Origin: Salinigranum rubrum
GTDB lineage: Archaea; Halobacteriota; Halobacteria; Halobacteriales; Haloferacaceae
Reading direction: 5' to 3'
Length of the DNA: 64,000 bases
NCBI RefSeq assembly: GCF_002906575.1
Contig: NZ_CP026309.1
Coordinates: 1,674,001-1,738,000 of the forward strand
Below, piece by piece: positions 28,081 through 30,617 of the stretch. The translations under genes were made by a program, and so were the position numbers. Position 1 is the first letter of the stretch, and each line of letters begins with the position of its first letter. The notes beneath the pieces were generated by a model. It ran no database searches. It was not told where the DNA came from and saw nothing but the letters and a program-made list of their open reading frames with translations.

Positions 28081-28476
28081 ATGCGAACGAGTTTCAACAT
28101 CCCCGACGAGGTGGTCGAAGAGTTCGATCAGGTCTGGAAAGAGCAGGAACTCGAAAACCGGTCCCGGGCGGTCAGAGAGGCGATGTTGGAGTACATCGAG
28201 TCACACTCTCGTCTCGAAGAGACGACCGGAGAGATCGTCGCGCTCGTCGCCTTCGATTACCGCCACGACGAGGTGATACGGGAACTCCACGCGGTCCAGC
28301 ACGAGCATCAGGACGTCATTCTGAACACGAGCCACACCCATCAAGGGGAGTGGTGTCTCGAATCGCTCTTCTGTCGAGGCCCCGCCGAGCGGGTCCGCGA
28401 ACTGACGTACCGACTCCGTGACTTCGACGCCGTGCGTCGCGTGAAGGTGATGGTCATCCGCGACGGAAACGTGTGA
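28081..28476 (+). CDS. nikR: Nickel-responsive regulator NikR
   Basis: A 131-residue ribbon-helix-helix repressor (RTSFNIPDEVVEEFDQVW; SRAVREAMLEYIESH) with a C-terminal ACT-like nickel-sensing domain. Candidate ligands are H74, H85, H87 and C92 in QHEHQDVILNTSHTHQGEWC. In E. coli NikR the last two ligands are six residues apart; here they are five apart, so this metal loop appears one residue shorter. Divergent from the His-rich metal transporter it likely controls. Confidence 0.92.
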   Translation: MRTSFNIPDEVVEEFDQVWKEQELENRSRAVREAMLEYIESHSRLEETTGEIVALVAFDYRHDEVIRELHAVQHEHQDVILNTSHTHQGEWCLESLFCRGPAERVRELTYRLRDFDAVRRVKVMVIRDGNV

Positions 28477-28512
28477 CTCCCGTCCCCGAACGAGTGGCGC
28501 CCACGACTTCGA

Positions 28513-28532
28513 CGCTGTTCGGCCTTGTTCAG
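28513..28532. repeat. Left direct repeat flanking the LysE-type gene
   Basis: CGCTGTTCGGCCTTGTTCAG is identical to 29320-29339, which lies within the last codons of aroQ. Flanking bases are also similar: read on the minus strand, both copies could encode LNKAEQRRSR. The repeats bracket the LysE-family gene. Confidence 0.85.
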
Positions 28533-28624
28533 GTCTCGGACTGACTTTCAAAGTTCGTCTGAGTCGCCGCGTTCTTCATCACAGTCGAGAACGGCAGTTG
28601 GTACCGCGAACGTTTCTCGTGACC

Positions 28625-29257
28625 CTACGCCGAAGTTCTTCGTTCGAGCGCCAACTTAAGCCCGAACCCGACGAGGACGCTTCCGCTGACGACACGAAGG
28701 GAATCTCTCACGAGTTCACGCTCGGTAATCACTCGTCTCGCCCGCGCGGAGAAAACCGCAAGTGTCGCTTGGTAGACGAACCCAAGACTCGCAAACAGCA
28801 CGCCGAACGTGAATATTTGAAGGGCAGTAGAACCCCCCGTCTGGACGAACTGCGGAAGGAAGGCGAGGAAAAATACGGCCACCTTCGGATTCAAGACGTT
28901 GATCATCAGAGCGTTTCGAAACGACTCGCTCGGTGTGTAGCCGAGGTCGTCTGATGAAATCTCGAACTCCTCGGTGTTCAAGAACGTCTGCACACCGAGA
29001 TACACGAGATACGCCGCACCGACGAGTTTGATTACGGTGAACGCCAGCGCGGACGTTTTGAGGATTGCCGACAGTCCGAGTACCGCTGCGGACGTGTGTA
29101 CGATACTTCCCGTCGAAGACCCTAACGCGGCCGTCACACCGGCGGTACGCCCGTCACTGATACTCCGAGTTAGCGTGTAGATGCTATCCGGTCCGGGTGA
29201 GATGATGAGCACGAGTGCGACGGGAATGAACGCGAGGACAGCGCTCGGGTCTATCAT
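28625..29257 (-). CDS. LysE/RhtB family exporter
   Basis: A 210-residue membrane protein of the amino-acid/metabolite efflux superfamily. Starts FIPVALVLIISPGPDSIYTL (the family's PGPD motif), with about six helices and ALMINVLNPKVAVFFLAFLP, also typical. The DNA is visibly less GC-rich than its neighbours and uses A/T-ending codons more often. It is bracketed by a 20-bp exact repeat derived from the 3' end of aroQ. Both suggest acquisition as a cassette. Promoter-like GTTTAATA (minus strand) lies just upstream. Substrate unknown. Confidence 0.9.
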   Translation of the reverse strand: MIDPSAVLAFIPVALVLIISPGPDSIYTLTRSISDGRTAGVTAALGSSTGSIVHTSAAVLGLSAILKTSALAFTVIKLVGAAYLVYLGVQTFLNTEEFEISSDDLGYTPSESFRNALMINVLNPKVAVFFLAFLPQFVQTGGSTALQIFTFGVLFASLGFVYQATLAVFSARARRVITERELVRDSLRVVSGSVLVGFGLKLALERRTSA

Positions 29258-29280
29258 CCACTACCGATCACGCATGGGTG

Positions 29281-29288
29281 TATTAAAC
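29281..29288 (-). promoter_or_regulatory. TATA-like element for the LysE-type gene
   Basis: Read on the minus strand, GTTTAATA lies 24-31 bases before the ATG at 29257. It is inside the repeat-bracketed segment, so the cassette would carry its own promoter. Confidence 0.5.
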
Positions 29289-29306
29289 CAGACGATTTGG
29301 GACGTG

Positions 29307-29597
29307 CTACCGACTCCGCCGCTGTTCGGCCTTGTTCAGTTCGATGAGGAGTCGGAACACCGCTTTGACGAGGTTGGCGTCGACCTCGAACCGCTCGGCG
29401 TTCTTGGCGGCGCGCTCCATCACGCGCTCTTCCTGTGACTCGTCCGTCGTCGGGAGGTCGCGCTCGGCCTTCACGTCGGCGATGGTGTCGGCCACGTAGG
29501 TCCGGCGCGCGACGAGTTCGACGATTTCGCGGTCGATGTCCTCGATTTCGGTGCGCAGTTCGTCCAGGTCCATGTCCTCGGGGGTGGTCTCTGTCAT
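29307..29597 (-). CDS. aroQ: Chorismate mutase
   Basis: A 96-residue AroQ-type all-helical enzyme that converts chorismate to prephenate at the branch to Phe and Tyr. Seen: LDELRTEIEDIDREIVELVA, then RRTYVADTIADVKAERDLPT with the basic residues of the active site, and ERVMERAAKNAE. Stand-alone monofunctional form. It lies 37 bases downstream of the shikimate kinase gene and is likely co-transcribed. Its final codons hold the right copy of the 20-bp repeat. Confidence 0.93.
   Translation of the reverse strand: MTETTPEDMDLDELRTEIEDIDREIVELVARRTYVADTIADVKAERDLPTTDESQEERVMERAAKNAERFEVDANLVKAVFRLLIELNKAEQRRSR
29320..29339. repeat. Right direct repeat, within the aroQ 3' end
   Basis: Same 20 bases as 28513-28532, here coding for LNKAEQ near the aroQ C-terminus. 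An element that joined at this site would leave aroQ intact while duplicating its tail on the far side. Confidence 0.85.
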
Positions 29598-29634: not shown

Positions 29635-30510
29635 TCAGAGGACGCGCGCGCCGTCGGTTCGCGTCGTCGTCAGTCTGGTCGTCCCGTCACGCTGGTCCCA
29701 CATAGCGGCGACGGTTTCCAACTCGGACTGGGCGCCGACGGCGACGACGCTCGGCCCCGTCCCGGAGAGGGAGACGCCCTCGGCGTGGGGCATCGCCTCG
29801 ACCGCCGGGTCGGTCGGGAAGCCGAGCGCCGCCGAGAACGCGAGGCCGTTGACGGTCATGCCTTCGGCGTATCTCCCATCAGAGGCGAGGTCGGCGACGA
29901 GACGCGCCATGGGTGCGACGCGCCTACATCGAGAGACGTCGGCGTCGGCGGTGAACGCGCGCTCGGGCGGCGTCCAGACGAGGACGTCCCAGTCGCGTTC
30001 GTCTCTCGATAACAGTTCGTCGCTCGTGTTGTCGGTGAGCGTGACGCCGCCGAGCATCGACGCGGAGGCGTCGTCGAACGCGCCCGTCGCCGTCACGCCC
30101 ACGTCACGAGCGGCCTCGACGCCGAGGCGACACGCGTCGAGACGGGTCACGCCTCCGTCGTTCTGCTCGTCGTTCACCTCGACGCCGAGCGCCGACAGCG
30201 TCGCCAGCACCGTCGCGTTCGCCGCCGCGCTCGACGATTTCAACCCGGCGGCCATCGGCACCTCGCTCTCGGTTCGGACGTGCCCGCCCCGCTCTCCGTC
30301 GCCGTAGCGCTCGACGGTCAGTTCGACGCAGCGTTCGATGAGTCGCGTGTCGGCGTCGGGTGCGTCCGCGATTGCGCCGGTGACGCCCTCGGTGTCGTCG
30401 AGTTCGACCGCCGCCGTCGTCTCGGCGTCGAGCGCGAACGCGGACCCGATTTCGATGGCGAGCGCGTTCAACACGGTGCCGGCACCCAGCGCGACTGCGC
30501 GACCCTTCAT
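29635..30510 (-). CDS. Archaeal shikimate kinase (GHMP family)
   Basis: A 291-residue GHMP-superfamily kinase that phosphorylates shikimate, unrelated to bacterial AroK. The ATP-binding motif is PMAAGLKSSSAAANATVLA near residues 84-102, with the family start RAVALGAGTVLNALAIEIGSAFA and the late GVSLSGTGPSVVAVG. I start at ATG 30510 (MKGRAVALGAG); an in-frame extension to 30597 reads as leader. First gene of a two-gene unit with aroQ. Confidence 0.92.
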   Translation of the reverse strand: MKGRAVALGAGTVLNALAIEIGSAFALDAETTAAVELDDTEGVTGAIADAPDADTRLIERCVELTVERYGDGERGGHVRTESEVPMAAGLKSSSAAANATVLATLSALGVEVNDEQNDGGVTRLDACRLGVEAARDVGVTATGAFDDASASMLGGVTLTDNTSDELLSRDERDWDVLVWTPPERAFTADADVSRCRRVAPMARLVADLASDGRYAEGMTVNGLAFSAALGFPTDPAVEAMPHAEGVSLSGTGPSVVAVGAQSELETVAAMWDQRDGTTRLTTTRTDGARVL

Positions 30511-30617
30511 ACTCCCCTCGTGTGTGAACGCCTCGTTTAGGTGTGACGGTTCGCGCGACCCGAGAGCGGGAGACGGAACCCAGCCCCTCTTTACCACCCG
30601 GAGACTACCACCCTCGT

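Follow-up and report, generated by a model that had tools for sequence, protein, structure and literature searches.

Streptococcal CIMEs are att-flanked segments without recombination genes that arise beside integrase-bearing elements and are usually larger remnants. On Acinetobacter plasmids, pdif modules consist of toxin-antitoxin (TA) or single genes between short tyrosine-recombinase sites, and are shuffled among replicons without an integrase of their own (PMC13141974). Integrons have been reported from archaeal MAGs of nine phyla, and most of the archaeal arrays have no integrase nearby (PMC9668308). For archaeal integrases in general, a review of the XerA/SNJ2 network gives tRNA genes as the main targets and leaves chorismate mutase unmentioned (PMC8371274); nor did we find aroQ or chorismate mutase mentioned as an archaeal integration site in the open-access literature searched, subscription papers lying outside the search.

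Here we consider a 64,000-nt stretch of Salinigranum rubrum DNA (the window), in which a gene for a LysE-type exporter lies between two copies of the 3′ end of aroQ. We consider it likely that site-specific recombination at the aroQ 3′ end has captured this segment as a mobile gene cassette, and that the integrase of an island moved it. Two parts of this proposal differ in strength: (i) site-specific insertion of a cassette is very likely; and (ii) the tyrosine integrase of aroQ islands, acting in trans, is the mover that we favour with some reserve. With about the same reserve, we suggest that the Halobacteriales have a gene-capture system of their own, parallel to integrons, in which the C-terminal codons of aroQ would form the capture site, an integrase dedicated to aroQ, from islands that bear defence genes, would be the mover, and the single-gene cassettes, mostly TA, would circulate among genera.

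The lysE segment behind aroQ

The target gene, aroQ, is an open reading frame for a chorismate mutase of 96 aa (29307..29597, minus strand) with orthologs in 59 of 60 relatives. Upstream of it is a shikimate kinase gene (29635..30597, minus strand), and the same neighbour is annotated as shikimate kinase in plasmid records. The last 33 nt of aroQ (29307-29339, minus strand) make up the upstream, attL-like recombination site, in which the C-terminus LNKAEQRRSR is rebuilt. A repeat search places a second, attR-like copy of the tail, CTGAACAAGGCCGAACAGCGTCGAAGTCGTGGG, at 28500..28532 (minus strand). Under a position-weight model of arm and core this copy scores 41.2 and the aroQ copy 27.4, the next-best place in the window reaching 1.3. 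Both copies contain the 20-mer CGCTGTTCGGCCTTGTTCAG, which occurs exactly twice in the window (28513-28532 and 29320-29339) and not at all in shuffled sequence, and the direct repeat around it reaches 32 nt at 91% identity. In the entire 4.97-Mb genome a degenerate 19-mer has two matches only, namely this pair. A chance origin of the repeat is rejected on the shuffles, on the two genome-wide matches and on a reversed-pattern control that is near nil (0 of 170 genomes and 2 of 392).

Between the tail copies lies a cassette body of 774 bp (28533..29306, minus strand), homologous to cassettes at other loci (L112_c1, L240_c2 and L241_c3). Its GC content, 0.563, is below the window value of 0.676, and every other 774-bp stretch sampled from the window is higher. 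The one likely gene in it (28625..29257, minus strand) is predicted to encode a LysE/RhtB-type exporter of 210 aa; the product matches Pfam LysE (PF01810) at 5.4e-38 over residues 16-205, so that the domain runs across the whole protein, and scores under the NCBIfam cut-offs. The TATA-like TTTAATA 23 nt 5′ of the lysE start (29281..29287, minus strand) is, from its sequence and position, probably a promoter carried inside the cassette. At the other end, adjoining the core of the second tail copy, is the cassette arm TTGAAAGTCAGTCCGAGAC (28533..28551, minus strand), a TGTAAC-type variant of the arm consensus drawn from unrelated cassettes. Beyond the second copy follows a convergent nikR-like gene (28081..28476, plus strand), which is the immediate 3′ neighbour of aroQ in those genomes of other genera that have an empty site. 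No integrase occurs among the open reading frames inside or beside the cassette.

A sequence-only reading of this DNA had described the pair of 20-mers at the aroQ end, the capacity of both to encode LNKAEQRRSR on the minus strand, and between them one LysE/RhtB gene with its own TATA-like element and lower GC. All of this stands, the aroQ copy reading LNKAEQRRSR-stop and the second copy LNKAEQRRSRG. The same reading explained them by insertion of an element at the aroQ 3′ end, with the C-terminus rebuilt in the process, and suggested looking in relatives for empty sites and for other genes between aroQ-tail repeats. Both exist, the empty sites being exact ones, and they support the proposal. 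The exporter and its two repeats are not a fixed feature of close relatives, as three genomes of the same genus, Salinigranum, have aroQ with neither a tail copy nor the window lysE there. Because these genomes have another downstream neighbour, an exact empty site is unavailable inside the genus; the aroQ of S. salinum is 95% identical to that of the window. Beyond the view of that reading were two facts, that the lysE segment is one of many related, array-forming cassettes, and that aroQ-targeting integrases sit on other islands.

The insertion in the window appears to be old, since its second tail copy has no stop codon and the two copies agree at only 28 of 33 positions. Its age is also suggested by the identity of the cassette to related lysE cassettes, which at 78-79% is roughly the aroQ level and therefore gives no transfer signal for the window copy. 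It is from scattered genomes and varied array positions, rather than from identity, that transfer of the lysE cassette is recognized: four genomes, from three families, have the same cassette behind aroQ, and its array position is 1, 1, 2 and 3. The window LysE is 82-84% identical to the cassette-borne LysE of the three others. One of these belongs to another genus (G013), where a LysE gene of 83.7% identity again stands between aroQ and a tail copy, in the orientation of aroQ; the remaining two (G261 and G196, from two further families) have the cassette at array positions 2 and 3. At another aroQ locus (L168), cassette 1, of 759 bp, carries a second LysE-family gene (Pfam 2.3e-26). This gene belongs to a different cassette group, which implies that LysE-family exporters have been captured repeatedly.

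Cassette arrays and integrase islands

Cassettes of this kind are common in the order Halobacteriales. The 19-mer is matched exactly two or more times in about 122 of 392 genomes, a sample that includes some drafts. Of 109 loci scanned with a weight matrix of the tail, nearly half have additional copies behind aroQ and in its orientation, and 35 of 75 loci have a tail copy when loci are picked by aroQ alone with at least 1.5 kb of downstream sequence (a Halorubrum-rich sample). The arm-plus-core model gives 122 sites at 177 aroQ loci, a set containing some repeats of one genome; all are on the aroQ strand and downstream, with none on the other strand and none upstream. Several loci carry arrays of 2 to 4 tail copies in tandem, with up to four cassettes. 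Strains that bear cassettes include Halorubrum saccharovorum, Halogranum rubrum and Haloterrigena alkaliphila. In IMG/VR, a scan with the tail pattern returned 15 contigs; in all of them the match is unrelated coding sequence that lacks both the arm and the conserved end of the tail. Copies of the site without aroQ inside the retrieved stretch were seen at L193/L258 (G121:C1:2240229, minus strand) and L194 (G119:C4:31313), and are possibly ectopic insertions, or else mark where large islands end.

The 104 segments examined comprise 32 singletons and 14 groups with more than one member. At least 57 of them are in groups that read as toxin-antitoxin (PIN-domain, MazF/PemK with MazE or another partner, and ParE), and other cargo comprises LysE (two kinds), alpha/beta hydrolase, SBF transporter, GNAT, glyoxalase and SnoaL. 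Most cassettes hold one gene or a TA pair, and no integrase. The orientation of the cargo gene differs by group, so the cassettes are independent of a common promoter. Units of 680, 700 and 1200 bp recur with fixed ends in many species, in differing array order. In locus L078 the first segment behind aroQ, of 3196 bp, includes an ORF that by eye is TnpB-like, suggesting an IS insertion into that cassette.

Large islands occupy the same site. Three of them, of 38 kb (G144), 37.6 kb (G097) and 32.5 kb (G446), span from aroQ to an arm-plus-core copy, and at the aroQ-proximal end of each are the gene for a tyrosine recombinase (379-430 aa) and a pair of small genes. By description this resembles the SNJ2 integrase cluster, in which the att site likewise adjoins a tyrosine recombinase that is accompanied by two small genes (PMC8371274). 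The integrase is a PF00589 match in the two islands tested; in Halorubrum californiense it is encoded at L189:4418-5557 (minus strand). Two more genomes (G385 and G364) have an integrase linked to aroQ, the linkage in G385 being the weakest of the five, as integrase and aroQ share a contig at a distance of ~10.6 kb but the other end of the island is on a second contig; a further genome (G022, locus L082) retains a decayed island with an integrase fragment. The five aroQ-linked integrases group in a single clade (100/99) of a tree of 45 relatives, with hosts from three families, a clustering matched in 0 of 500 shuffles. They keep the catalytic R, HxxR and Y, and match XerA/XerD models weakly, far under the cut-off. 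No tRNA genes occur inside 1.5-kb flanks of the other related integrases, and the haloarchaeal virus and phage records searched contain no match for the aroQ-island integrase, no relative of it and no arm-plus-core match.

Island insertion also leaves its mark on AroQ: its last residues are changed, as seen in the differing, extended C-termini at integrase islands (L083, L186, L282 and L268), for example RHNRKTD or longer. Two 38-kb islands, in G097 (L186-L188) and G144 (L189-L191), have model matches to an Hma-like helicase/methylase/ATPase, Lamassu LmuB and Gabija GajB; the aroQ site hosts defence islands besides small cassettes.

A close homolog of the island integrase was not found in most cassette-bearing genomes, the window genome included, where the closest homolog is only 29% identical; the mover must therefore be transient, rare or different. 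It is possible, as a more tentative reading, that the units are site-specific and that their mover is chromosomal XerA or some other, plasmid-borne integrase, much as Xer acts on dif modules in Acinetobacter. Cassettes are common and the aroQ-island integrase is rare, with a relative at E<=1e-40 in 46 of 392 genomes and aroQ linkage in a handful only, and distant tyrosine recombinases, at ~30% identity, are present in nearly all genomes examined. Integrase matches in the plasmid records reach 24-33% at best, none of them close. What favours the island integrase over such a mover is that three integrase islands end in the cassette-type arm and core, and that a dedicated integrase clade tracks aroQ.

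The islands raise another, unlikely scenario, namely that the units are the decayed remains of large islands integrated serially at aroQ, and are CIME-like remnants without mobility of their own. Such accretion fits the integrase islands at aroQ, one of them decayed, and some segments of 2-5 kb with several genes, but is hard to reconcile with the recurrent fixed-end units in shuffled order and with a 1264-bp unit that has moved intact between genera (below). The aroQ cassettes do share the anatomy by which CIMEs are defined, as they are att-flanked and without an inner recombination gene, and integrase elements exist at the same site; unlike CIMEs, they are minimal, recurrent single-gene units spread over genera. 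In one genome (G356, L231-L232, G356:C48:296597-323186), 26.6 kb with several unrelated genes separate aroQ from an arm-plus-core copy. No integrase was recognized among the ORFs of this segment, which is perhaps an accretion of many insertions.

Empty sites, crossover and arm

Comparison of filled and empty loci defines the point of insertion. In several empty loci nikR lies 30-60 nt after aroQ, and in filled loci it comes after the last tail copy. Within Halorubrum, one locus (L049) is empty and three others (L088, L090 and L095) each have a different cassette, inserted at the identical base; their DNA downstream of the insertion is 98%, 95% and 90% identical to that of L049, respectively, and collinear across 430 bp. 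Haloferax provides another such filled/empty pair (L041/L039). In 16 filled/empty pairs, the sequence leading into the tail on the left agrees with the host at the aroQ copy, and that running rightward from the tail end agrees with the host at the last copy.

The crossover itself is located by cassettes of Halogranum rubrum and Halogeometricum limi (L036_c1 and L037_c1), which are 99.7% identical over 1264 bp in genomes whose aroQ genes are only 82.1% identical. The identity starts on the left at tail position 2 and ends on the right at position 10, and the exchange thus falls within the 9 bp TGAACAAGG. In the window these are 29330..29338 in the aroQ copy and 28523..28531 in the downstream copy (minus strand), and the motif is nearly invariant across tail copies. 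Such breakpoints are the expected trace of conservative site-specific recombination in which one site is on the cassette and the other on the chromosome. Unrelated cassettes have in common an 18-bp arm beside the core (positions -18 to 0), with the consensus TATTATGGATTTCAGCTAC or TGTAACrtCAGTCCGAGAC, about 18 bp, and there is no conservation past the tail. When cassette type is compared with tail codons over all members, the arm gives a clear signal and the core none, the crossover being resolved by the closest pairs only; saturation or conversion between copies may have decoupled tail codons from cassette type over long times.

A plausible course of events would be as follows. Each cassette unit consists of one gene or TA module, then the arm of ~18 bp, then a copy of the aroQ tail. 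As a circular intermediate, with the junction arm-CTGAACAAGG-3′ tail part-gene, it would undergo exchange with the tail on the chromosome, the crossover falling in TGAACAAGG. On the left, aroQ would then keep the codons of the host, and AroQ would be restored because the cassette supplies the right codons and the stop; the displaced host end of aroQ would be placed behind the cassette. Repeated insertion would build the direct-repeat arrays, and the integrase of the rare aroQ islands would work in trans on cassettes that have none.

Haloarchaea exchange DNA readily. Ordinary homologous recombination via conserved aroQ and downstream flanks could draw on this and on the homologous flanking genes (cf. 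homeocassettes, PMC11078007), but is very improbable, because a single stretch of 9 bp contains the left as well as the right breakpoint of the 99.7% cassette, in a context where aroQ is just 82% identical, and because unrelated cassettes have conserved arms. Still less probable is a transposon that inserts at aroQ with a target duplication of 20-33 bp: the insert is bordered by direct repeats, as this would require, but the window cassette has neither transposase nor terminal inverted repeats, the flanking copies are reciprocal hybrids, unlike a duplicated host tail, and a single site is common to unrelated contents.

Likeness to integrons and dif modules

A true integron, with IntI and attC, would likewise yield gene-cassette arrays rich in TA genes, but it is the least probable reading, given that there is no IntI integrase, that the site is the tail of a coding gene, and that the archaeal integron paper (PMC9668308) does not mention Halobacteria or haloarchaea. 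Folding of four site sequences in the manner of attC was no better than shuffles or only slightly so (z 0.47 to -1.95). The resemblance to integron cassettes and CALINs is nonetheless considerable: small one-gene units with a common end site, in tandem direct arrays, TA-rich and, by the inference drawn here for aroQ cassettes, movable in trans. The differences are that the site of aroQ cassettes is an arm joined to the last codons of aroQ, in place of a folded attC, that their cargo lies in either orientation with its own promoters, and that the recipient is a rebuilt housekeeping gene. With dif (pdif) modules they share small single-gene or TA modules without an integrase of their own; pdif sites alternate in orientation, in contrast to aroQ sites, which are all direct and behind one gene (122 against 0 opposite). 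We suggest that the aroQ system is a variant mobile cassette system, falling outside the definitions of integrons and of dif modules.

If this is correct, a widespread archaeal cassette system exists beyond IntI/attC, with small genes behind aroQ in roughly one third to one half of sampled haloarchaeal genomes, and it would account for the spread of TA pairs and exporters among haloarchaea. It would also mean that a reusable docking site can lie in the last codons of a protein gene and be rebuilt with each insertion. The precision of the site, 9 bp and an 18-bp arm, makes it amenable to testing in Haloferax volcanii, and a possible tool for stepwise gene insertion in haloarchaea.

Finally, we note that aroQ is found on plasmids as well. 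In Haloterrigena and Halomontanus, plasmid-borne aroQ bears annotated arrays with PIN, AbrB/MazE and VapBC genes, and from this arrangement aroQ-bearing plasmids may serve as vehicles of cassettes. Plasmids of 160-400 kb carry the shikimate kinase-chorismate mutase pair in four records from these genera (L288, NZ_CP084320; L290, NZ_CP119800; L291, NC_013747; L292, NZ_CP149790), and in three of the four it is followed by toxin-antitoxin genes.
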